Source of the DNA: Enteroscipio rubneri
Lineage (GTDB): Bacteria; Actinomycetota; Coriobacteriia; Coriobacteriales; Eggerthellaceae
NCBI RefSeq assembly: GCF_002899715.1
Contig: NZ_PPEK01000011.1
Location: forward strand, 1 to 64,000
DNA length: 64,000 bases
Direction of reading: 5' to 3'
Positions 51,101 through 64,000 of this stretch are shown here, piece by piece (position 1 is the first letter of the stretch; the number at the start of each line of letters is the position of its first letter). The position numbers and the translations under genes are program-made. Below the pieces are notes generated by a model. The model saw nothing but the letters and a program-made list of their open reading frames with translations, was not told the DNA's origin and did no database searches.

Positions 51101-51914
51101 CGACAGGTGCGTCATCGAAGCGCTCACGCTCCCGCCGACCGAAGCCCGTTGCCACTCTCTCAGTTTCGTCGATATCGAGCGTTTGGTGGTCAACGCGATA
51201 AACCTCTACGTGGGCGGAAGCCCCGACCCCGAGGTTCCAGCCGACCCCGCCCAGCTGAACAGCGTGATGTTCGACCTATGGCGCGCGGTCACGCACAACG
51301 AGGAGGAAGGCAGGAGCGGTCTGCCCGTTCCCCAGTCGGAGATGCAGGTAGCTTCTCTCGCGCGTCTCACCAGAGTCTTCGAGGGGGAGTTTCCCGAGAA
51401 AAAGGAGGGCTGGTCGCAATTCGGAAACGACATGGTGAGCCTTTTGAACAGCGAGGTGGAGAACCTTCGCCGGGGCATGTCCGACTGGAACTCGTCGATA
51501 GGGAGCAGGTTCGATCCCCAGGACTGGTGCCATCTTGTCGAGAGCGACGAGTCGCTGTATTGCGACTGCTCGATGGGCGATCCTGAATTGTACGAGCCAT
51601 GCGACACGATACTGGACTGTCCCTGCATGGGGCCGGGCTTCTACCTGGCCAATCCCGACGATTGCCAATGCCTCACGCGATTGAGGTGCGGCGAGCCCGC
51701 CGTGGACGTCTCGAGCATCGTGACGTGCGCGCAGGGCGTATTCGTTGATTTGGAGTACGGTCCGAACCTTGCTTCGGATACGCGCAGGCGGTTCCTCTAT
51801 TCTTCGACCAACAGCTGGGGGCTCAACGACATCGCGCACGTGTACCCGGCGGTCAATGACCCCGTCTATTACTTGAACGTTCTTGCAGACAGCCCCGATT
51901 GGGTGGAGCTATAG
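48150..51914 (+). CDS. Large protein with two LamG/concanavalin-like domains
   Basis: The 1,254-aa protein appears to carry two laminin-G/ConA-like modules. The first spans ~30-170 (ENEWNRIDAVYDGEVLRLYIQG, WQMGDLDGYVQEVTL). The second spans ~225-395 (LPVNEWSDLAVSVSGAQAAFFVDG, GFPGFIDAVTVFDRAL). Hydrophobic stretches near 510-540 and 560-575 could be membrane segments. Residues ~1,130-1,190 are Cys-rich (CHLVESDESLYCDCSMGD, CDTILDCPCMG, CQCLTRLRC). No signal peptide or sorting motif is visible. It overlaps the Hint gene by four bases, so the two products very likely work together. I do not recognise the overall family. Its stop shares the palindrome CTATAG with the stop of the opposing gene. 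Confidence 0.82.
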   Translation: MSTQRRSFFALKCAPPDLAFCAAVPDRSLSGGDAFSLGATVFVPHNGSDKTVVEQPGSFRFGYDGGAVLFESKNLGRHRSDPAGVHLLENEWNRIDAVYDGEVLRLYIQGIPVYEANATGERFVDGETRWQMGDLDGYVQEVTLAARSFTDDEVRFNQIEHVVPDGELELCADFDAFDPRDAGRHALPLQLVGHCDVVNLVPALRTGTAGSVLAPRTTANPGAFSTGAFTVLAKVFPTVSPEMGDGYVFANGALGDAQGFALGVTEQQTKPFCLIGGERFAFDATLPVNEWSDLAVSVSGAQAAFFVDGVPTGTATLAAPFARTEPADVMIGNAPDAAGVAVMGFPGFIDAVTVFDRALDADRLAGYADVAPYRFDDGVAASWLFSDEAPREVVLDGQMLYAGGAAVALRENTVLDPNPPTLAFALPDVATGMTDVEEWESRAAATVLLETVKALTGQEAVSGFSGGGQGKLNGSMAKALYVTLAADARMKSIEDEGSVTRDVLIGIFASVSGVAALWPVFEAFYLSGARWQNPYRIARFLRYVRILSPVAKSKVSKAIAAAAAIATITLAARPSPDPRESKTKGATIALKSLAFYSDASKDCGAVCIRPDFDASPVLPEWTEGCTASQSAYWRVGADARPVLRLTLAVSALDAPTTVQVKATAQGDGLLGSLDAQNVTLAAVGDVTVDFPLAHHALGAADLGSHNVLFQWRAGDKLLGSTKHEVHVLAARPLPRWSNEPGKGELPTLPAIRMAEAVQAQESTEEEASRRFCGQFVAWVRAEAAAGKLVGRPWTDGPAFVHWDKQHRNLLFDIASFFEAYAAPPVAVGALDLAGLTLALARMEGLAEVRLAELSGLAGTGGLMVRAAYRLGETAVERSLTAATYPVTCVKDGSHDRIYDAYLEPVDASGARVSATGLPFSLGSEKTDAVAGVSASTYRTLLCAPGTTGCVALRTAVLGFGTLPLQGISPGEPVVVQTRGGRPSFDRCVIEALTLPPTEARCHSLSFVDIERLVVNAINLYVGGSPDPEVPADPAQLNSVMFDLWRAVTHNEEEGRSGLPVPQSEMQVASLARLTRVFEGEFPEKKEGWSQFGNDMVSLLNSEVENLRRGMSDWNSSIGSRFDPQDWCHLVESDESLYCDCSMGDPELYEPCDTILDCPCMGPGFYLANPDDCQCLTRLRCGEPAVDVSSIVTCAQGVFVDLEYGPNLASDTRRRFLYSSTNSWGLNDIAHVYPAVNDPVYYLNVLADSPDWVEL

Positions 51915-54900
51915 GGTTTCGGCTGCTGTGCGACGCCGGCGCCGCACAGCACGTGTCGCGATGGCGGCGCACGTCAAGGCCGACAGCGCCAGGGCGCTTG
52001 TCGCCGCCGCCGTCGGCGCTGCGGTGTCGCCCGTGCGTGCGAGGGGCTTCGGCGTGGCGCCCCCTTCTGTGGCGTTGGGCGTCGGTTGGGGTTGCGGGAT
52101 GGGCTCGGGCTCGACTGCCGCCCCCGTTTTCACCAGAATGCGGCCGGTGCCGTTTTCGTCGGCGTAGATGGAATCGGCCCGTATCACGCCGCTCAGATCG
52201 TCCTTGATGAAGGAGATGAGCGCCTCGTAATCCAAGCCCTGCTCGGAGACGAGCACCTTCGCATCCTTGAACATGGAGAACCCGTCACCGCTGTCTTGCA
52301 GCAGGTAGGTGATGGACGAGACGGTGTAGGTTTTGCCCAGATCGATGGGTTCGCCGCCCACGCGCACGTTTTGCACGCGCCGCGCGCCCTCGATGCCCAC
52401 GAACACACCCTTTTCGTCCAGCTTCACGGGCGAGGGGATATCGGAACGTATCTCGTAGGTGAGCCCCGAGGTTTGCAGCAGCCCGCCGTTGGGCTCGGGG
52501 TAGAGGCGCGCGCCCATTTCCAGCGCGTCGACGATGGTCTGGCCGGTGGCTTCCACCTTGCAGAGCGTGTTGCCGAACGGCAGCACCGCGATGGCGTCGC
52601 CGTACGTGATGTCGCCCACGGCCACGTCGGAGCGGATGCCGCCTCCGTTCATGAAGCCGATGTCGGCGCCGAGCGATGCGCGCACGGCGTCGGCTGCAAG
52701 GTCGCCCAGGTTCGTCTCGCGCATGCGCACGGCCCAGCTATGCTGCGTGTCGCTCTCCACGGCCACCAGCTTGACCTCGGTGCGGGCGACCACCTTGTCC
52801 AGCGTTTTGCTCAGCCTGTCCTCGATGTCCTTGATGAAGGCGGCGGTGTCGGGGTCCTGCGCCACGGGAGGCTTCACTAGACGCGTTTCGATCTTCCCCG
52901 TCGTGGGATGGATGATCACCTCGCCGTAGGTTTGCAGCTGTGTGCCGGTTTGCGCCAGAAGCACGTCCCTGCCCGCCTTGTTGGCGACGCGCTGTTCGTA
53001 CTGCTCGTGGGAGTGGCCGTCGATGAACACGTCGATGCCCGTGGTGTTCGCGATGACGGTGTCCGAGCGCCAACGGGCGGCGACGCCCGACTGGCCCAAA
53101 TGTCCGAGGGCCACCACGTAGTCGGCTCCGTTCGCGTGGGCCTCGTCGACGGTTTGCTGGACGCGGTCGTAGAGCATCTGCCCCGTCTCGTCTTCGCAGA
53201 AGCCGTAGACGTCGGTCCCGCTCGCGTCCTTGAAGTGCGCCGGGTTCGACTTGGTCAGCGACTCGGGCGTGGAGATGCCCACGTAGGCCACGCGCACGTT
53301 GCCGTACGTTTCGATCGTGTAAGGCGAGAACTCGGTTGCGCCCGTTTCCAGGTTGTCGAAGTTGCACGACAGGTAGGTGGCGTTCGAACGGTCGACGAGC
53401 CTGCGCAGCTGATCCATCCCGTAGTCGAACTCGTGGTTGCCGGGTATGGCCAGGTCGTAGCCGACCTGGTTCATGATATCCACCAGGTCGGCACCCTGCG
53501 AGAGCGTTCCCAGGGGCTTGCCCTGCACGGCGTCGCCCGCGTCCACGAGGGTGACGTTGTCGGCGCCGTAGGCCGCTTCCGCGTCCTTGAGCGCCTGGGA
53601 AACCCCGGCGTAGCCGATGCTCGTAGCCGTGCCGTCCTCGTCGAAGGTCTGGTCGACGCCGCAGTGCACGTCGTTGGTGTGCAGGATGGCGATGGGCGTG
53701 TCGGGCCCGGCGGGCGTTTCGGTGGTGTACGCCTTCAGCAGGGCGTTTCCCGCCGTGTAGCCGGCCCCGTCTTCGAACAGGTTCTCGCGGGCCATGTCGT
53801 GCCAGTCGGACGTCCCCTCGGTGTAGTAGGTTTGGCCGGCCGCGCAGTCGATGGCGGCATACTCTTGGCTCGCATCGTCGACTTCGGCGAGCATGAGGTA
53901 GTTCCCGTTGGGCTCCTGTGCGGAAGCGACCACCGAGAAGGTGTCGCCCGCGATGACGGGAAACGCATCGCTGCCCAGGTCGATGGTGGTGTAGCCTGCG
54001 TTGGCCCCGGTAAGCGTCGTATGCCACTTCAGGGTGCCGCTTTGCGGGTTCAGCGTCCCGCCGTCGGTCAGGCCGGTGGGGTTGCGATAGACGGTGATGT
54101 CCACTTGGGAGCAGGCCGTTGGTAGAAACACGCTGACTGCCTGCACGGTCTCGCTGCCGCGCGCCTCGAATACGTTGGCGAACTGGATGCGCTGGGTGTT
54201 GCTGAACCCCGTCTCGCCGACGCCCACCCCGTCGTACTGGTAGATGCCGTCGTAGGCGTGGTCGGTGCCGTCGGCGTCGTAGGTTGCCTGTTCTGCTTGG
54301 TAAGACGTGGGATTCGAGAAGCTGGTGTCGTAGTAGGACAGGTAGAAGCAGCCGTCCTGGTGGCCGCTCGTCCCGGAGCCCCAGCTGTTCTTGACGATCC
54401 AAGCGCCGTCGCCTTCCGGTTGGGTGGAAAACTTCTCCTTCGGGAAGCTGTCGTCCCACCCGATGATGCTCACCTCGTGATTCGCCAGCATCTCGGCGTT
54501 GTCGGCCGTCTTGCTGTAGAAGTAGGCGCTCGTTGCGGGGTTCCACGTGCCCCGCCCCGTCATATTATTCGTGATCGCGTTGTCGGCGTAGAACGACACG
54601 TCCACGACGCCGTTTTCCATGAGGCACGTCTTGATGGCGTCGACGGCGCTGGGATCGCGACGGTGCTCCAAGGTGGGCGACCCGCCTTCGTGCTCCTGCC
54701 AGGTGTACACGTTGGGCTCGGGAAGAAACATGACGTTCTGCACGTGCACGTCGGACTGGTTGCGCAGGGCGGCGTCCGGTGCGCCCATGCTGGCATCGTT
54801 GATGTACGGGGCCTTCTGCTCGTCCACGGCGCCGTACCAGCGCATGAGCGTGGCGGCGGACAGGTTTCGAGCCCCGCCCGCGTCGTAGTCGGATCGGCCG

Positions 54901-55427
54901 GTGGTGTTGAGGAACGTGTCGCCGCCCGCCCACCGGCTGTCGTCGGCGCTGTCGTCCGCGCCGTTGTACGCGAACCATGCCAGATGGCGCTCGGCCAGGT
55001 CGGGGCTGCTGGGAGCGCCTGTGGCATGGTCCGTGACCAGCAGGTTCGACTCGAGCGACGACAGTGCGCCAAACGACCAGCAGTCGCCGAAGGGGTACTG
55101 GTCTTTGACGCTGGTCGAGAGGCTCGCCCCACCCGCTCCCGCCGTGCGCAGGTCGTAGGAGTCGGGGAGGGCCGCAAGCGCGTTGGCCCCCGATGCGGGG
55201 TTCAGCAGGGAGGGGTCGTTGAGGCTGAACACAGGCCCGCGCTCGGTTTCCACCATGCGGCCGAGCGGCTGGAGCGTGCCGACACTGGCGCTCGAGCCGG
55301 TGCCGGCGGGATCGGCGGCGCTGTCGGGCTCGGCGAAGGCGGGAACGGGGAGCAGTGTCGCCGCGAACGCGAGGGCGAGCGCGGCGCGTCCAAGAGCGCC
55401 GAACGGGTTGCAGGAGGGCTTCTTCAT
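51909..55427 (-). CDS. Wall-anchored papain-like protease / 5'-nucleotidase fusion
   Basis: The 1,172-aa surface protein starts with a signal peptide (to ~residue 32). A C1-family protease domain follows (~90-370): oxyanion Gln110, Cys116 in GDCWSFGA, His317 in NHEVSIIGWDD and Asn347 in VKNSWG. A lectin-like domain of the kind seen with C1 proteases spans ~400-565. A UshA-type metallophosphatase is next (HTNDVH 583, GDAVQGKP 631, GNHEFDYG 663, GHSHEQ 804). It ends in a 5'-nucleotidase C-terminal domain (NGGGIRSD 927), LARTGD at 1129, a hydrophobic helix and RRRRR. All catalytic residues appear intact. It could release peptides and nucleosides at the cell surface. Confidence 0.9.
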   Translation of the reverse strand: MKKPSCNPFGALGRAALALAFAATLLPVPAFAEPDSAADPAGTGSSASVGTLQPLGRMVETERGPVFSLNDPSLLNPASGANALAALPDSYDLRTAGAGGASLSTSVKDQYPFGDCWSFGALSSLESNLLVTDHATGAPSSPDLAERHLAWFAYNGADDSADDSRWAGGDTFLNTTGRSDYDAGGARNLSAATLMRWYGAVDEQKAPYINDASMGAPDAALRNQSDVHVQNVMFLPEPNVYTWQEHEGGSPTLEHRRDPSAVDAIKTCLMENGVVDVSFYADNAITNNMTGRGTWNPATSAYFYSKTADNAEMLANHEVSIIGWDDSFPKEKFSTQPEGDGAWIVKNSWGSGTSGHQDGCFYLSYYDTSFSNPTSYQAEQATYDADGTDHAYDGIYQYDGVGVGETGFSNTQRIQFANVFEARGSETVQAVSVFLPTACSQVDITVYRNPTGLTDGGTLNPQSGTLKWHTTLTGANAGYTTIDLGSDAFPVIAGDTFSVVASAQEPNGNYLMLAEVDDASQEYAAIDCAAGQTYYTEGTSDWHDMARENLFEDGAGYTAGNALLKAYTTETPAGPDTPIAILHTNDVHCGVDQTFDEDGTATSIGYAGVSQALKDAEAAYGADNVTLVDAGDAVQGKPLGTLSQGADLVDIMNQVGYDLAIPGNHEFDYGMDQLRRLVDRSNATYLSCNFDNLETGATEFSPYTIETYGNVRVAYVGISTPESLTKSNPAHFKDASGTDVYGFCEDETGQMLYDRVQQTVDEAHANGADYVVALGHLGQSGVAARWRSDTVIANTTGIDVFIDGHSHEQYEQRVANKAGRDVLLAQTGTQLQTYGEVIIHPTTGKIETRLVKPPVAQDPDTAAFIKDIEDRLSKTLDKVVARTEVKLVAVESDTQHSWAVRMRETNLGDLAADAVRASLGADIGFMNGGGIRSDVAVGDITYGDAIAVLPFGNTLCKVEATGQTIVDALEMGARLYPEPNGGLLQTSGLTYEIRSDIPSPVKLDEKGVFVGIEGARRVQNVRVGGEPIDLGKTYTVSSITYLLQDSGDGFSMFKDAKVLVSEQGLDYEALISFIKDDLSGVIRADSIYADENGTGRILVKTGAAVEPEPIPQPQPTPNATEGGATPKPLARTGDTAAPTAAATSALALSALTCAAIATRAVRRRRRTAAETL

Positions 55428-55725: not shown

Positions 55726-56565
55726 CTAGCACTGCGCACGCGGCGCGGCGAGCGCTTGCTTGACGCTTCGATAGCGCCGCTCGGCGATGGGGTACTCCGA
55801 ACCGTCGTCGAGCTTGGCCCGATAGCCCTCGATGCTGACGATGCGGCCCCGGTGCACGAGGCAGCTGCGGTGAAGCCGCAGGAAGTCTCGCGCGGGCAGC
55901 TCCTCTTCGATGTCCGCCAACGCCGCGCGCACGGTGAACTCGCCGTGGGCGTGCTTGACGACGCATCGAGGGCCTTCGGACTCGACGGCGTGCAGCTCGT
56001 TGGGGTGCAGGACATGGAGGTCTCCGCCGATGTCGCGAAAGCTGATTTTCCCCGTGCCCGATCCTTGGTCATCGAAATGCTCGTAGAGGAACTCGATGGC
56101 GTTCTTCCCCGTGTCGAGCGACGGCAGAAGCGTGTTCGCATCGGTGGTGTTCGAGACGTGCAGATGCACGATGCGCGGTCCGTCCGGCGTCGGGGCCCAA
56201 ACGTAGGTCGCGCGTTGCTCGAACGGAATGCTCCGCTCTCCGTCGGTCGACACGACCAGTAGCGTGTAGCAGGCCGAAACAATCCACGTGCCCGCCCGCT
56301 TGCGTGCGCGCCATCGCTCGTCGGCCAAGGCCAGGCGGATGCCGTATTCGGGGCGGAGAATGTCCTGCATGGCCTTCTTGCTGGAGGCAGTCTGGCAAGC
56401 GAACGGTCCCAGCCATTCGACATCGTCGGCCATGTGCGCCAATGCGACGTCCATGTTTCGCGTCACGAAATGGTTGACGAGGGACTGCCTCGACAGCTTG
56501 ATGATGGCGTGCTCCTTGGGAAGCTGCTCGGCGGCTTGTTCTTGATTGCCGTTCGTCTCAACCAT
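55726..56565 (-). CDS. SnoaL/NTF2-like sensor + LytTR one-component regulator
   Basis: The ~279-aa protein begins with an NTF2/SnoaL-like cone (~20-155; LSRQSLVNHFVTRNMDVALAHMADDVEWLGPF). A LytTR DNA-binding domain follows at ~175-275 (KISFRDIGGDLHVLHPNELHAV, DFLRLHRSCLVHRGRIVSIEG). There is no receiver or membrane helix, so a small ligand is probably sensed directly. ATG 56565 is preferred because GGAAGGAAG precedes it. An earlier in-frame Met lacks this. The gene lies upstream of the wall-anchored protease/nucleotidase in the same direction, so that gene is the natural candidate target. Confidence 0.83.
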   Translation of the reverse strand: MVETNGNQEQAAEQLPKEHAIIKLSRQSLVNHFVTRNMDVALAHMADDVEWLGPFACQTASSKKAMQDILRPEYGIRLALADERWRARKRAGTWIVSACYTLLVVSTDGERSIPFEQRATYVWAPTPDGPRIVHLHVSNTTDANTLLPSLDTGKNAIEFLYEHFDDQGSGTGKISFRDIGGDLHVLHPNELHAVESEGPRCVVKHAHGEFTVRAALADIEEELPARDFLRLHRSCLVHRGRIVSIEGYRAKLDDGSEYPIAERRYRSVKQALAAPRAQC

Positions 56566-56625
56566 AGGCCCGCTTCCTTCCAAGGTGCTGAAAAGAAGAG
56601 GATGGCACAAACGCCGCGGGCGAGC

Positions 56626-56658: not shown

Positions 56659-57261
56659 CTAAGATGATACTTCAGCGTCCTTCAATATGAGGCTCACGGC
56701 TTTCTGGATGGTTTCGCGGTCGTAGGGTACCCCCATGAAGCAGGAGTTGATGATGGCGCCTTCCATGAACGCACAGAGGATCTTCGCGCGCTGCTCGTCC
56801 ATGAACGGCGCGCACCTGCGCAAAAACGACTCGAAGGCGCTCCTTGTTATGTCCTCCACCTCGGGATCCTCGATCGCCGCAGCATAGAGGGCGGCGTCGG
56901 CGTGCACCCGCTGCTGGTCCGAGAGATACTCGTTGATGAAATCGGCAAGCGCCGTCGCGTTCTGGATTCCCTGCTCGGTGACGCGGAACGCCTCGTCGTA
57001 CTCGTGCTCGATCCTGCGGGCGACCTCGGCTAAGCCCTCGCGGCGCAACTCGTCGATGCTCTTGAAATACTGGGTGGTCGAGCCCAAGGGCACGCCGGCC
57101 TCTTCCGCCACCCGCCTGTTGGTGATTTTACTGCTCCCCTCGCGTGCTATGAGGTTGGCAGCGGCGTCGATGATGGCCTGCCGTCGACCGGCAGGGTCTC
57201 GCGGCGCGCGCTTCTTCGGCTTCTTCCCGGACCTCTCTGTCTTCGTCGTGTCTTCTTCCAC
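56659..57261 (-). CDS. TetR/AcrR-family repressor
   Basis: The ~200-aa protein has a basic N-terminus and a TetR helix-turn-helix at ~25-70 (GRRQAIIDAAANLIAREGSSKITNRRVAEEAGVPLGSTTQYFKS). A ligand-binding helical domain follows. I set the start at GTG 57261: AGGAGG is six bases upstream, whereas the TTG two codons earlier abuts that site. It is divergent from the lipoprotein/MFS operon. The intergenic region holds two matching palindromes overlapping the -35 box and start point of the opposite promoter, so repression of that operon is the clear expectation. Inducers are probably exporter substrates. Confidence 0.9.
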   Translation of the reverse strand: MEEDTTKTERSGKKPKKRAPRDPAGRRQAIIDAAANLIAREGSSKITNRRVAEEAGVPLGSTTQYFKSIDELRREGLAEVARRIEHEYDEAFRVTEQGIQNATALADFINEYLSDQQRVHADAALYAAAIEDPEVEDITRSAFESFLRRCAPFMDEQRAKILCAFMEGAIINSCFMGVPYDRETIQKAVSLILKDAEVSS

Positions 57262-57328
57262 GGGCAACCTCCTGTGCCGTCCGCTGTCTTACTGCTGTCT
57301 CCGTGATCCCATTCTAATCGAAATTTTT

Positions 57329-57350
57329 CTTAATGTACACTTGAACATTA
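57329..57350. promoter_or_regulatory. TetR operator 1
   Basis: A 22-bp near-palindrome has outer arms TTAATGT/ACATTAA and core TGTAC-ACTT-GAACA. It overlaps the -35 box of the lipoprotein/MFS promoter. It shares the TGTAC-N4-GWACA core and the flanking TTAATGTAC arm with operator 2. Confidence 0.7.
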
Positions 57351-57368
57351 ACTCTCCAGCTGCTATGC
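57340..57368 (+). promoter_or_regulatory. Promoter of the lipoprotein-MFS operon
   Basis: TTGAAC (57340-57345), a 17-base spacer and TATGCT (57363-57368) match a sigma70-type promoter. The predicted start near 57375 falls inside operator 2. Confidence 0.7.
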
Positions 57369-57372
57369 TTTG

Positions 57373-57394
57373 TAGTGTACATAAGTACATTAAC
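57373..57394. promoter_or_regulatory. TetR operator 2
   Basis: A second copy has core TGTAC-ATAA-GTACA and a TTAA arm. Its centre is 44 bp from operator 1, about four helical turns, and it covers the predicted transcription start. Confidence 0.7.
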
Positions 57395-57429: not shown

Positions 57430-58077
57430 ATGAACATGAAGAGGATAGGCACCCTGGCAGCCGCTTTCGCCTTGACCGCGTTTGCCGCCTGCGCGCTCGC
57501 CGGCTGCGGAGCGAGTCTGGACCGCGAAGTGACCGTGCAGGACATAACGTTCAAGGTCCCGAAAACGTGGCTGGAAAGCCCGGGCGGCAACGGCTCGAGC
57601 GGAGCGGTCGTGTTCACGGAGGACAACGAGGACTTGGATGAGGACGAGACGGGCAACAGCCTGACTATCAGCTACGAGAAGCTTGGCGCGCCGACGGCCG
57701 CCGTTGTCGAGGAACAGGTCGGGGCCGCCGAGCAAGAGGGCAAGGTCATCGAGGAAGAGGGTGCCATGCCGGCTGAGAAGGCCGAGAGCGCCAAGCCCGT
57801 CGCCCGCACGGCAGCCGAGGCCATCGCGGCCAAGCAGGCCGATCTGGAGAAGAAGTATGGAATTACCGCGTGGAGCATCGACAAGGAGAAGTCCAAGGTG
57901 ATCGATGGTGCCCAGGTTACGGTGTACGAGTACAGCTTCGTCAAGGACATTGAGGGTCAGAAGCGTAAGTACGAGAGCAAGGCGGCCTACGTCGTCACTA
58001 CCGACACGCTCTACGAGATCGCGGTCGTGGGCGACAAGGCGGACATCAACGGCGTCGTGGACAGCATAGAGCTGTAA
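57430..58077 (+). CDS. Predicted lipoprotein, TetR-operon member
   Basis: The 215-aa protein has a lipoprotein signal: MKRIGTLAAAFALTAFAACALAGC with lipobox LAGC and acylated Cys at ~26. The mature part has a PsbP/DUF-like feel (VTVQDITFKVPKTWLES, ending TTDTLYEIAVVGDKADINGV). A Glu/Ala-rich insertion occupies its middle (~95-140). It is therefore anchored outside the cytoplasmic membrane. It is the first gene after the TetR operators, 57 bases before the MFS gene. It may be an extracytoplasmic helper or sensor for the exporter. The function is unknown. Confidence 0.85.
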   Translation: MNMKRIGTLAAAFALTAFAACALAGCGASLDREVTVQDITFKVPKTWLESPGGNGSSGAVVFTEDNEDLDEDETGNSLTISYEKLGAPTAAVVEEQVGAAEQEGKVIEEEGAMPAEKAESAKPVARTAAEAIAAKQADLEKKYGITAWSIDKEKSKVIDGAQVTVYEYSFVKDIEGQKRKYESKAAYVVTTDTLYEIAVVGDKADINGVVDSIEL

Positions 58078-58134: not shown

Positions 58135-60429
58135 ATGGATGATTCTATTGTTATCAAGCCGCAAACGCTCTCGAAGGGCCGTTTGTGGACAGCTCTCATC
58201 GCGATATTGTTGGGACAGTTCGTGGTCGCCATCGACCTCACCGTTCTCAACATCGCGCTGCCCGAGCTCACCCGGGACCTCAGTCCCTCGTCAGACCAGC
58301 TTCTCTGGGTGGTCGACGTCTACTCGCTCGTCTTGGCGGGCTTCCTCGTTGCCACCAGCTCGCTTTCGGATAGGTTCGGCAGGAAGAAGATGCTCCTCGC
58401 AGGCTTCCTGATCTTTGGCATAGGATCGGTGCTGGTCGTGTTCATAAACGACGCGAGCCAGCTGATTGCCATCCGGGCCTTCTTGGGCATCGGCGGTGCG
58501 ATGATCATGCCCATCACCATATCTATGATCCGAAGCATCTTCACGGATTCGAAGGAGCGCGCGATAGCCGTGGCCGCTTGGTCGGCCATCAGCGCCATCG
58601 GCATGGCGGCCGGCCCGCTCATCGGCGGCTTTCTGCTGGAACACTTCAATTGGCACTCGGCGTTCCTCGTGAACGTGCCCATCGTGGGCGTCGCCTTCCT
58701 GCTCGGCATGTTCGCCATGCCGGAGGTGAAGCTCAAGAACCCCGGGCGCTTCGACGTTCTGGGGTCGGTGCTTGCCCTCGCCGGCATGGTAGCGCTTCTG
58801 TGGGGCATCAAGCACCTTGCGGCCGAACTCGCGTTCGACGTTCCCGGCGCGGCGGCAACCCTCGGCGGCCTGGCGCTCATGGCCCTGTTCGTCTTCCGAT
58901 GCCTGAAATCGCCGCATCCCATCGTCGATCTTTCCCTGTTCCGCAGCCGGACGTTCTCGGCCGGCGTCATCGCCACCATGGCGTGCACGTTCGCCCTGGC
59001 CGTGCTCTTGTACATGCTGGCCCAGTGGCTGCAGCTGGTCAACGGCGACGGCACGCTCGAATCGGGCATCCACCTCATTCCCATGTCAGTGGCCACGCTG
59101 ATCTCGAGCTTGGGCGCGGCCGCCCTTGCCATGCGCTATCAGGCGCGGCACGTGGTGGCGGCCGGCCTGGGACTCGCTTCGGTGGCCATGCTCATGATGT
59201 TCTTCTTCCAGGACGACCTCTCCCTCACCGTCGTCATCGTGTCCACCTGCCTGGTGGGCCTGGGAACCGGCGCCCTGGCAATCGGCGCATCGCTCATCAT
59301 GGCCGAGACGCCCGTTGAGAAGGCGTCGAGCGCGGGCAGCCTCCAGGAGATATCCTACGACCTGGGCAACGTGCTGGGTGTGGCCATCCTGGGAAGCCTC
59401 GCCTCCATCATCTACCGCTCGGAGCTCGGCACCGGCGCCCTGCGCGCCATGGGCCTGGACGGGCAGCTGATCAACGCCGCGAAGCAGTCGTTCGCGGCGA
59501 CCACCGAGATCGGCAACATGCTCGGAATGCCCGAGCTGATCCAACGAGGTGCGGACGCGTTCAACCAGTCCCTGGTCGTGACGTGCCTCGCGGGCGGCAT
59601 CATCATCTTGGTGACGGCCATCGTCGTGTGGAAGCTCATCCCCAAAGGGCTGAAGATCACCGAGGAAAGCAATGCGGAAGTCCCGTCAGACGATCGCTCG
59701 CTGCCCGCATCAGGCGAAGGCCCGTCGGTTGACGGCGGCGATGCTGGCGCCGCTCAGCCTGAGCCTGCCGGGGGCGCGTCCTCTGCGAACCTGGACGACG
59801 CGAAGATGCTGCCCGGGGCCTTCCCCGTGCCTGCCGCGACCCTGTCCCGCGGGGGAGGCGCCCTGGCGCAGTCTGCGGCGATTGCCAAGATCATTGAGGA
59901 TGCGGGTATCGGCGTGGTGAACGTGCCCCTCGACATCGCCACCTTGGATCGGATGGGGGAGATGTGCAACGACCTGGGGATCGACGTGACCACGGCGTTC
60001 ATCGTGCTCGCCAAGAAGGCGGTGGAGGAAGGCCGGCTCCCGCTCGGCCTGCCCGCCGACGCGGGGTGCAGCGCCGAGGATCTGGCTCGCATCGAACGCA
60101 ACGTGGAGGCCCTTGACGAGGGACGCGGGGTAATGCACGAGTCAGACGACCGGATGAGGACGTGGGCCCCCGAGGCATGGGCGGACTACCGCTCGTGGAA
60201 GAGCCAGGACGAGGATGTCCACCGCTTGGTCAAGACGCTCGTCGCGAGCATCGAGTCCGACGGAGCGGGTGCGGGGGTCGGCGATCCCCGGCCGCTGAAG
60301 GCAGGCGAGACGTCGCTCTGGACGCGCCGCATAGCCGACGACCACCTGCTGGTGTACCGCATGGACGGCGACGACCTGCAGATCATCGCCTGCAAGAGCC
60401 ACAGCACCATGGCAGCGAGGCCGTTGTAA
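58135..60429 (+). CDS. MFS (DHA2/EmrB-like) exporter fused to RelB/DinJ-like and YoeB-like domains
   Basis: This 764-aa protein has three parts. Residues 1-505 are a 14-helix drug:H+ antiporter (motif A SLSDRFGRKKMLLAG, motif C-like GMAAGPLIGGFLLEHFNWHSAF). Residues ~506-575 are a Pro/Ser/Gly/Asp linker. Residues ~585-672 match the RelB/DinJ antitoxin family (VNVPLDIATLDRMGEMC, LGIDVTTAFIVLAKKAVEEG, NVEALDEGRG). Residues 674-764 match YoeB toxins (TWAPEAWADYRSW, DPRPLK, WTRRIADDHLLVYRM, IIACKSH). Compared with E. coli YoeB, Glu46 is Arg719 and Arg65 is Leu738, while His83 is kept as His756. The toxin may thus be inactive. The frame is uninterrupted, and a terminator follows. The TetR operators lie upstream of the preceding lipoprotein gene. 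Confidence 0.9.
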   Translation: MDDSIVIKPQTLSKGRLWTALIAILLGQFVVAIDLTVLNIALPELTRDLSPSSDQLLWVVDVYSLVLAGFLVATSSLSDRFGRKKMLLAGFLIFGIGSVLVVFINDASQLIAIRAFLGIGGAMIMPITISMIRSIFTDSKERAIAVAAWSAISAIGMAAGPLIGGFLLEHFNWHSAFLVNVPIVGVAFLLGMFAMPEVKLKNPGRFDVLGSVLALAGMVALLWGIKHLAAELAFDVPGAAATLGGLALMALFVFRCLKSPHPIVDLSLFRSRTFSAGVIATMACTFALAVLLYMLAQWLQLVNGDGTLESGIHLIPMSVATLISSLGAAALAMRYQARHVVAAGLGLASVAMLMMFFFQDDLSLTVVIVSTCLVGLGTGALAIGASLIMAETPVEKASSAGSLQEISYDLGNVLGVAILGSLASIIYRSELGTGALRAMGLDGQLINAAKQSFAATTEIGNMLGMPELIQRGADAFNQSLVVTCLAGGIIILVTAIVVWKLIPKGLKITEESNAEVPSDDRSLPASGEGPSVDGGDAGAAQPEPAGGASSANLDDAKMLPGAFPVPAATLSRGGGALAQSAAIAKIIEDAGIGVVNVPLDIATLDRMGEMCNDLGIDVTTAFIVLAKKAVEEGRLPLGLPADAGCSAEDLARIERNVEALDEGRGVMHESDDRMRTWAPEAWADYRSWKSQDEDVHRLVKTLVASIESDGAGAGVGDPRPLKAGETSLWTRRIADDHLLVYRMDGDDLQIIACKSHSTMAARPL

Positions 60430-61091: not shown

Positions 61092-64000
61092 TTATATATT
61101 CTTCAACAACTCCATAACAAAGTCGGCGTTGCTGCGCAGCGTCTCTTCGTCGATGTTTTCCATCATATCGTTGGCCTGGGCGTACAACGCCGGCTTTCCG
61201 CCTTCTATGCCCACGAGATGCATAGCTTGATGACCGTGTCGCACGGCGAAGGAAGCCGCGCTGTCCTCCCAGAGCAACTGCGCCGATCCAATGCTCACCC
61301 CGCTCGCCTGCGACGCCTTCTTTACATAGCGCTTCATGCGTGACGACGTTTTCACTGCACGCAGCGTGCCCTCCTTTTCGATCATGCACAGATCACCCGC
61401 GCCGAGCGCGTCAAGATCAATGATGATCGCACCGCGCAGATCCTGCTGATGCTCATCCAAGAATGCCCGCATACCAGCATTTTTAGACAGCTCGGAACCG
61501 AGTGCGACGAACCATACCTCGGTGTTGATATCCGGATTGCGGAACTGGTACACCTGCCTGAGCTCATCAGCGATTTCAGGATCTTCTTCATACCGACCAT
61601 ACGCGTCCGAACCGTCCAATCCGTCGAACTCGTCCGCTCCTGCGCCATGTTGCTCCACACGCGTTGACGAGAACGCGCCGCCGTTCCACGGCCGGCGATC
61701 ATCAGAATCGTAGTAGTCGGCGTCGTTTGGATCAAAATCGTCTTCGAACTGTCCAGTCGCGCTATCGAATGCGTCTTCTTCGTACACATCCGCATCCTCG
61801 TCGCGGAAACTTTCCCAGCCGCCGCGTTCGGCACCTGCAGAGCGCGCATCGAACGTCTCATCGACGTCGAGCCATTCCTGCGGGCTCGGCTCGATCTCCT
61901 TTTCTTTCTTGCGGAAGCGCCCGAAAAGCCGTTGGACGCGCGACTTGGGCATCTCCACGTAACCGGGACCGGCGTACGCTCCCGTTTCGGTAATGTTATC
62001 GTCGTACGCAGAGTCATCGGCGTCATCCACGTAAATGTCGTCGGGATCAACGTTGTCCAGCAGCTCGTCACCGATCGGGGCGAAGGCACCAGTCGCCCCG
62101 GCGGGAGCAAACGAGCCGGCCGCACTCACGTTTTTGGGCGAAGCGTCGTCGTCCTTCACACGAATAGCACCGGAAAGCGAAGGCAGCATCGAACGCAAAG
62201 CGGGCTTCTTTGTGGATTCGCCCGGGGCCGCTCCCCCTGCCTCCGGCACATCCCCATCCGGGGCGCCAGACCCGCCGAGGTTGATGGAAGGGAGCATGGT
62301 GAGCAAGCTCTTCGCTGCTGTTTTCGCAGAGCCTTCGACGTCGGCGAGCGGGGCACGTTGCTTGGGAAGCTCTGAAATAGGCGTGGGATTGGCAGCGGCC
62401 ATGCCGATGTCCGGCAGCTCGATGGGGCGGCGACCGTGTTCGGCGGGCGTGCCTATGTTCTCGTCACCATCCGCACTCGGCACGTCGAGCGGGGTGATAC
62501 GGCCGCTCGCATCGATCGGCACACCTGTCACATCCACGCGCTTGTCGGTACGCGGGCCGTCCATGAACTGCGCACGCGACTCCTCCTGCACCTTCTGCGG
62601 ATCAAGGAACGAAGGCATGGGCACGGCGCCCGCATCGGGCATATCGTCGAGGCGCAAATCGTTAACATCAATGGGGGCCATGGCGGTGGTGGCCGCCGGA
62701 TCGACTGGAGGCTGCGACGCGGAGGCATCGACCGAGTCCTGCGACACAGGCGCAGTCGGGGGCCGACCGCTCGGCTGGGAGGCGTCCTCGCGTGTAGGTT
62801 CCTGCGGTTCGGCCGTCGCGGCCCAGCGAGGTGCCTTCACTTCGCGAATAACGCCCGCATCGGATTCCAGTACCTGTTCGAGACGCTTCTCCACGACTTC
62901 GTTCGCTTCGGCGAAGTGCCCAGCGCTCTCGCTGACCGCGGCGTCGAGTGCGGAGGCGTAGCGGGAGCGCTGCACCGGCTTGTCCTCGTTGCGAGGCTTC
63001 TTGGCCTTCTCCTGAGCTTTCTTGAACCAGTCAGGCACACCGACGGAAGGTTCCTCGGCGCGCGATGACTGGATGACGGCGGACTGCGATATATCCGATG
63101 CGGAGGAGATGGTGTCTTCCGGATGCGCGGCTTCAGCGTTTGCTAGCGCAGCCTGCATGGTATCGGGCGGAATCGAGGTAAGGGCCTCGCGCGTCTCGTC
63201 GCGCAACTCGCGAAAGTCGTCACCGGACGGCTTCGCGATGGGAGGCTCCTTCACCTGCACGAGGTTTTCTGCAAGATCGGAGGAGTAGACGTTGGGCATC
63301 GGCTTTCCGGACAAGGCGGCGACGGCGGCCTTTGCAGCCGCAAGACGCGCTTCGGGCGTCTGGGGCGCCGGCTCGGGCGGCACCATACTCGCGGCTTCGT
63401 ACACAATTTGAGCGCCTTCAGGAACGAGGCCTTCCGCGCGCGCAGCCTCCTCTCCATGGATGAGAGCCGCCTCTCGTTCCGCAAGGTCGGCTTCGCTCAC
63501 GCGTCCGCGACCGACCCGGCGAGCCGTCTCAAGAAGCACAGCCGTTCCAGCGGCGTTGCAGTTGGCAGCTTCGTTGTACGCGGCCAACTTATGGACGAGC
63601 GCGAAGATAAGCACGATAGCAAGCGGCACCAGCGCAATCACAACGAGTACGTTCATCACGGTGACCGCCATCCCCGTATCGTTCGCGAACACGATGTTGC
63701 GAACGACAAGCAGAACGGGGAGCAGCACCATGGCGACGAGCTCCGCCCATTGCAGGACAGGCAGAAGCTTCAGCAGTGGCCTGTTCAGCTCGGCGCGCAC
63801 CTTCCCGCTGTCGTAATGCGCGACAAGGATCACCTTGCGGCGGCGCGAGCCGCCTGCTTCGGTCGAAAAGCCGGGCTCGTACTTGGCGACTACATTTTGG
63901 CTCACGCCGCGCGCGAACGCCTTTGAAAGCACCGGATGGTCGAACGCCTCAGCTGCGAACAGAAGCGCCGTGATAGCTGTGATCGCGATTGACGCGATAC
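61092..64000 (-). CDS. Membrane M28-peptidase-like protein, partial, with huge insertion
   Basis: The gene runs past the right edge, so its start is not seen. The visible ~969 residues begin in a membrane helix (ITAITALLFAAEAF). An M28 core follows (VILVAHYDSG), then a pair of helices and YNEAANCNAAGTAVLLE. About 650 low-complexity acidic/Ser/Pro residues intervene before the M28 second half (TEVWFVALGSELSKNAG, IIIDLDALGAG, GIEGGKPALYAQANDMMENI). Compared with active M28 enzymes, the bridging Asp of NDN-x-SG is Cys (NCNAAG) and the catalytic first Glu of EE is Ser, so peptidase activity is doubtful. The insertion is probably cytosolic and could be an interaction platform. Confidence 0.8.
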   Translation of the reverse strand, partial: IASIAITAITALLFAAEAFDHPVLSKAFARGVSQNVVAKYEPGFSTEAGGSRRRKVILVAHYDSGKVRAELNRPLLKLLPVLQWAELVAMVLLPVLLVVRNIVFANDTGMAVTVMNVLVVIALVPLAIVLIFALVHKLAAYNEAANCNAAGTAVLLETARRVGRGRVSEADLAEREAALIHGEEAARAEGLVPEGAQIVYEAASMVPPEPAPQTPEARLAAAKAAVAALSGKPMPNVYSSDLAENLVQVKEPPIAKPSGDDFRELRDETREALTSIPPDTMQAALANAEAAHPEDTISSASDISQSAVIQSSRAEEPSVGVPDWFKKAQEKAKKPRNEDKPVQRSRYASALDAAVSESAGHFAEANEVVEKRLEQVLESDAGVIREVKAPRWAATAEPQEPTREDASQPSGRPPTAPVSQDSVDASASQPPVDPAATTAMAPIDVNDLRLDDMPDAGAVPMPSFLDPQKVQEESRAQFMDGPRTDKRVDVTGVPIDASGRITPLDVPSADGDENIGTPAEHGRRPIELPDIGMAAANPTPISELPKQRAPLADVEGSAKTAAKSLLTMLPSINLGGSGAPDGDVPEAGGAAPGESTKKPALRSMLPSLSGAIRVKDDDASPKNVSAAGSFAPAGATGAFAPIGDELLDNVDPDDIYVDDADDSAYDDNITETGAYAGPGYVEMPKSRVQRLFGRFRKKEKEIEPSPQEWLDVDETFDARSAGAERGGWESFRDEDADVYEEDAFDSATGQFEDDFDPNDADYYDSDDRRPWNGGAFSSTRVEQHGAGADEFDGLDGSDAYGRYEEDPEIADELRQVYQFRNPDINTEVWFVALGSELSKNAGMRAFLDEHQQDLRGAIIIDLDALGAGDLCMIEKEGTLRAVKTSSRMKRYVKKASQASGVSIGSAQLLWEDSAASFAVRHGHQAMHLVGIEGGKPALYAQANDMMENIDEETLRSNADFVMELLKNI

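Follow-up and report, generated by a model that had tools for sequence, protein, structure and literature searches.

A QacA-type exporter of Enteroscipio rubneri with a degenerate antitoxin-toxin pair as its C-terminal tail

QacA, SmvA and LfrA are 14-transmembrane (14-TM) exporters of the DHA2 type that are paired with the TetR regulators QacR, SmvR and LfrR. Toxin-antitoxin systems in which both partners share one chain have also been described: ribbon-helix-helix (RHH)-YoeB and YefM-YoeB single-gene fusions are published, with an RHH antitoxin domain followed by YoeB and some of the modules presumed to be functional (PMC11980606). The same work describes ToxM, membrane BECR toxins in which a RelE/YoeB-fold domain is carried on a membrane protein (PMC11980606). 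The residues required for both activities of such pairs are known from Escherichia coli. In RelB, R7 contacts a base from the DNA-binding strand, and the substitutions R7A and K13A each abolish operator binding (PMC2812701). In YoeB, E46 acts as the base and H83 as the acid, R65 and Y84 are also used, and Y84A abolishes activity (PMC3814384).

Here we describe a gene in a 64,000-nucleotide stretch of the Enteroscipio rubneri genome (the window) in which an exporter, an antitoxin domain and a toxin domain are joined. A sequence-only reading of this gene started from the premise that toxin and antitoxin have to be separate genes, which is too strict in view of the published fusions (PMC11980606). 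Its remark that it knew of no described family with the three-part layout agrees with our literature searches, in which we found no description of a transporter that carries an RHH domain or a toxin-antitoxin pair as a fusion partner; transporters are unmentioned in the main text of PMC11980606.

The fused gene, its exporter domain and its neighbourhood

The fused gene lies on the forward strand at 58135-60429, where a frame of 764 codons runs from an ATG start with no interruption. The exporter domain (residues 1-505; 58135-59649) is followed by a disordered, low-complexity linker of variable length (residues 506-585; 59650-59889), an RHH domain of the RelB/DinJ type (residues about 586-640; 59890-60054), the toxin-wrapping segment of the antitoxin (residues 641-672; 60055-60150) and a YoeB-fold domain (residues 673-764; 60151-60429), the borders being approximate and the YoeB part proper spanning 673-756. 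The proposed succession of exporter, linker, RelB/DinJ-like and YoeB-like domains in one frame is borne out by the frame itself, by profiles and by relatives with the same architecture (loci L056, L057 and L058). Of the three kinds of profile, MFS_1 and YoeB_toxin were matched, and RelB_DinJ was matched weakly in the window and more clearly in relatives.

An assembly or frame artefact, for which the rarity of the layout is the only argument, has a negligible probability, given that the same protein occurs in independent genomes, in one of them on a single contig at 97% identity, and that the codon-position GC bias runs on through the tail. Indeed, the sequencing error that the sequence-only reading had asked to be considered is excluded by this independent, 97% identical protein of 764 residues and by two more distant genomes, where the same domain order lies in one frame and changes in linker length keep the frame.

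By its sequence, the exporter domain is a QacA-type 14-TM DHA2 exporter of the major facilitator superfamily (MFS). Pfam MFS_1 matches residues 24-415 (E 7e-46), and the NCBIfam QacA/B-like model matches residues 15-510 with 448 bits, below its naming cut-off of 900. QacA of known structure can be aligned with residues 13-511 from end to end (PDB; E about 1e-129), and it is from this homology that 14 TM segments are deduced, in agreement with the initial reading; hydropathy itself gives 13 peaks within residues 20-498. The domain retains D34, motif A (LSDRFGRKK), GPLIGG of motif C, E405 and D409, the last at the place of QacA D411. The QacA-specific D323 is not kept, and T321 stands at that place.

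A TetR-family repressor gene, identified by Pfam and by gene order in relatives, lies at 56659-57267 on the reverse strand, and a small lipoprotein gene at 57430-58077 on the forward strand precedes the exporter. The exporter had been proposed to be under TetR control; the repressor gene does adjoin, but it is divergent from the lipoprotein gene, and the exporter is only the second gene after it. Between the repressor and lipoprotein genes lie two palindromes, TTAATGTACACTTGAACATTAA (57330-57351) and TGTACATAAGTACATTAA (57376-57393), both likely TetR operators by their symmetry and by comparison with relatives. They are conserved in L056 and L057 and present in degenerate form in the tail-less L060; TetR control is therefore independent of the tail. 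Several genomes conserve the lipoprotein gene ahead of or close to these exporters, whether or not the exporter has the tail; its product has no Pfam or PHROG family and is possibly a partner of the pump.

Over the 3.7-kb block from the repressor gene to the exporter end, the window genome and G068 are 97.3% identical, compared with 92.7% for rpoB. On this sequence comparison, the cassette, tail included, has probably moved between genera recently. Farther out, the reverse strand encodes a surface protein of 1172 residues (51909-55427) with a papain-type peptidase, a lectin-like domain and a complete 5'-nucleotidase (metallophosphatase plus C-terminal domain), a LytTR DNA-binding regulator with a SnoaL-like N-terminal domain (55726-56610), and, beyond the exporter, a protein of 946 residues (61092-63932) with a C-terminal M28 peptidase domain and a long, apparently disordered middle.

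Catalytic and DNA-contact residues of the tail

The YoeB fold is recognised by Pfam YoeB_toxin (PF06769; residues 677-756, E 3e-19, above cut-off) and, with the domain searched alone, by NCBIfam Txe/YoeB (TIGR02116; 54.8 bits against a cut-off of 51.8). A structure model of the tail shows a confident YoeB fold, with 6l8e, 7bwf and 2a6r as the best structures (TM-score 0.85-0.88 by target). Structure prediction, which had been suggested as a check on the tail, thus supports its YoeB part, but the RHH part was modelled only at moderate confidence as a monomer. A model of the full-length protein, built on an alignment of two rows, was unusable (mean pLDDT 35).

Within this fold the catalytic residues have largely been replaced. 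R719 (codon 60289-60291) stands at the place of E46, L738 (60346-60348) at that of R65 and S757 (60403-60405) at that of Y84, so that the E46-R65-H83-Y84 positions read R-L-H-S. The fused domains of the window genome, G068 and G055 read R-L-H-S/A/P at these positions, and the Gordonibacter fusion (G065, locus L058) reads E-K-W-A, with R65 replaced by K, H83 by W and Y84 by A. All free YoeB proteins of the family have E46, R65 and Y84, and all but two of them have H83. The two fused branches have thus suffered different catalytic losses with the same probable outcome, inactivity. An active toxin is unlikely in the window because E46, R65 and Y84 are gone, and it is very improbable that the tail works as a single-gene toxin-antitoxin module or as an addiction device stabilising the exporter cassette. 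Such a device would fit the intact fold, the existence of single-gene antitoxin-toxin fusions (PMC11980606) and the apparent horizontal movement of the cassette; however, Y84A alone abolishes YoeB activity (PMC3814384), and an antitoxin in this chain is not degradable apart from its toxin.

The RHH domain is less well matched by profiles. RelB_DinJ (TIGR02384) gives E 5e-4 in the window; in G065, G086 and G055 the corresponding stretch gives E 3e-9 to 3e-7. All these matches stay under the curated cut-off, and Pfam RelB has no match to the window tail. The domain is nonetheless plain in an alignment with free antitoxins, and its helices are intact. The DNA-contact positions have changed: P598 (codon 59926-59928) occupies the place of RelB R7 and L604 (59944-59946) that of K13. 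Among 19 free antitoxins of the family, R is found in the R7 column in 18 and K in the K13 column in all, whereas none of the five fused members has either residue (P, P, P, P, V and L, L, L, L, M, respectively).

The membrane-bound DNA-binding domain or transporter-gated regulator envisaged in the sequence-only reading is therefore not borne out. In that scheme the RHH domain would bind a promoter, either that of the exporter or a different one, with substrate or the YoeB domain as the gate, in a PutA-like logic. The intact helices would allow this, and not all residues of the DNA-binding strand are known to be needed, but every fused member tested has hydrophobic residues at R7 and K13, and a separate tetR gene with its palindromes already serves the exporter, including where the tail is absent; we consider this scheme improbable. 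Together, the substitutions at R7 and K13 and at the catalytic positions point to the loss of both toxin activity and DNA binding, and the tail very probably acts neither as a toxin nor as a repressor tethered to the membrane. An annotation of this gene that took its YoeB match for a toxin or its RelB match for a repressor would be mistaken.

Distribution, origin and selection

Searches covered 138 genomes of the family and 397 of the order. The full three-part layout, sought in other Eggerthellaceae as the initial reading had suggested, was found in three further genomes of the family: G068 (97% identical, 764 residues, single contig), G055 (78%) and G065 (56%), the last locus also being found as Gordonibacter sp. 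Marseille-P2775 (LT827128). Among the matches listed, YoeB matches in frames longer than 300 codons came only from these three and the window genome. In G086 the protein consists of exporter and RHH domain and ends there, and in G355 the RHH domain is truncated partway. Most relatives are tail-less: in the remaining close exporters the chain stops near residue 515 or runs on into an unrelated lysine-rich tail, as in G030 (L062, 3631-5364), which suggests that the C-terminus of this exporter is prone to gaining extensions.

No copies beyond those known turned up in 396 genomes sampled across the phylum. A single-sequence scan of genome contigs found nothing, and an alignment-based scan found the Gordonibacter copy and ordinary Gardnerella pairs. 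In a plasmid collection the matches listed were only ordinary two-gene antitoxin-yoeB pairs, with no fusion; viral contigs gave nothing, and a search of a defence-system library gave no match. No convincing relB or yoeB remnants were seen downstream of the exporter in tail-less relatives.

In the exporter tree every tail-bearing member falls within one clade of ten (support 100/99), interspersed with tail-less members. In the tail tree the fused forms make up one clade (93/92) that adjoins free relB-yoeB operons of Eggerthellaceae. The simplest reading is one fusion and repeated loss thereafter, which would imply a single origin; two fusions are the alternative. A free operon of the Eggerthellaceae type would have been joined in frame, probably once, behind the TetR-regulated exporter gene in an ancestor of about ten known exporter lineages. 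At the joint, three of the four free operons that we examined have their two genes overlapping at ATGAATAA; in the window protein, M674 (60154-60156) is what remains of the toxin ATG, and the intervening stop is gone. In L057 and L058 the corresponding residue is Ile. A separate toxin start is therefore not conserved, and the tail is one frame, with neither the separately degradable antitoxin of a type II system nor a proven functional fusion. Nearly identical free relB-yoeB pairs (L016-L019) occur in four genera of the family, including that of the window, which points to a toxin-antitoxin operon that is mobile.

Between the window and L057, the RHH domain, toxin-wrapping segment and YoeB domain together show 60 amino-acid differences, compared with the 75-79 expected without selection from simulations with the same number of nucleotide changes under a simple mutation model, and none of 200 simulations gave so low a number. 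Pairwise dN/dS agrees with purifying selection on the tail domains. In the same comparison the toxin-wrapping segment is strongly conserved and the linker is close to neutral. The E46 and R65 losses are common to the window and L057 and so most simply predate the split between the two; purifying selection would thus have continued after these losses. The absence of in-frame stops was dropped as evidence of selection; neutral simulations of this GC-rich sequence often lack stops as well.

Possible role of the tail and comparison with known systems

We see an even chance that the tail is an antitoxin-toxin pair, fused once and disarmed in both its parts, that has been retained as a folded accessory of the exporter in the cytosol, serving dimerisation or stability, and that many relatives can dispense with. 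Of the repurposed modules that the sequence-only reading had offered, its third, an inert stabilising tail, fits best, as catalytic and DNA-contact residues are lost and the folds are still selected. After fusion, the antitoxin would have lost the residues that hold DNA and the toxin those that cut mRNA, and selection in the window lineage would still maintain the folded pair as a cytosolic domain. The RHH fold, whose relatives are obligate dimers, might pair two exporter chains or guard the C-terminus from proteolysis, although P598 in the ribbon strand could weaken the dimer. The dead YoeB domain may shield the protease-sensitive segment of the antitoxin, much as RelB, a Lon substrate, is protected by its toxin RelE (PMC2812701). 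A structural role, in dimerisation or stability, thus seems the most likely one. Export in general does not require the tail, since it is partly or wholly missing from many relatives.

The main rival, which we regard as unlikely, is an inert relic: a read-through fusion without function, slowly being lost and folding just well enough to spare the exporter. The loss of part or all of the tail in most relatives, the loss of both activities and the near-neutral linker suit this account, and purifying selection may just reflect the harm of a misfolded tail. Against it, selection acts on all tail domains and continues after the shared E46 and R65 losses, and the full tail is kept in four genomes and has probably moved intact with the cassette between genera. 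It is rather improbable that the tail is a decoy that neutralises free YoeB or RelE toxins, or that the dead YoeB domain tethers the exporter to ribosomes. The strong conservation of residues 641-672 between the window and L057 would agree with such a module, but a search of the window genome yielded no YoeB match apart from this gene and a single RelB-type gene at another place, the YoeB domain of the same chain probably already fills the antitoxin segment, and the mRNA-contact residues R65 and Y84 are lost.

Beyond a folded accessory, we put forward tentatively, at somewhat less than an even chance, that the pair has been domesticated as a working exporter domain, without DNA binding or RNA cleavage, that controls dimerisation, turnover or activity, for which we found no earlier description. 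If the tail controls the exporter, this would represent a new mode of regulation for a QacA-type multidrug pump of gut bacteria. The locus offers a traceable case of a selfish toxin-antitoxin operon becoming a harmless protein part, in which the joint, both losses and the selection on the folds can be read from the sequence.

Like QacA/QacR, SmvA/SmvR and LfrA/LfrR, the locus combines an exporter with end-to-end homology, D34 and D409 with an adjacent tetR gene and palindromes; unlike them, it adds a cytosolic tail of 250 residues, it lacks D323 of QacA, and a lipoprotein gene stands between tetR and exporter. The tail has the domain order of the RHH-YoeB and YefM-YoeB modules, to which no transporter is described as joined (PMC11980606), and it differs in being an exporter tail and in lacking catalytic and DNA-contact residues. 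ToxM shares a RelE/YoeB-fold domain on a membrane protein, but there the toxin is N-terminal, followed by a central TM region and a periplasmic domain, with no transporter (PMC11980606). The closest relatives of the tail are the free RelB/DinJ-YoeB operons of Eggerthellaceae (L013, L014 and L038), which have the same domain order and a matching joint, whereas they consist of two overlapping genes and keep R7, K13, E46, R65, H83 and Y84.
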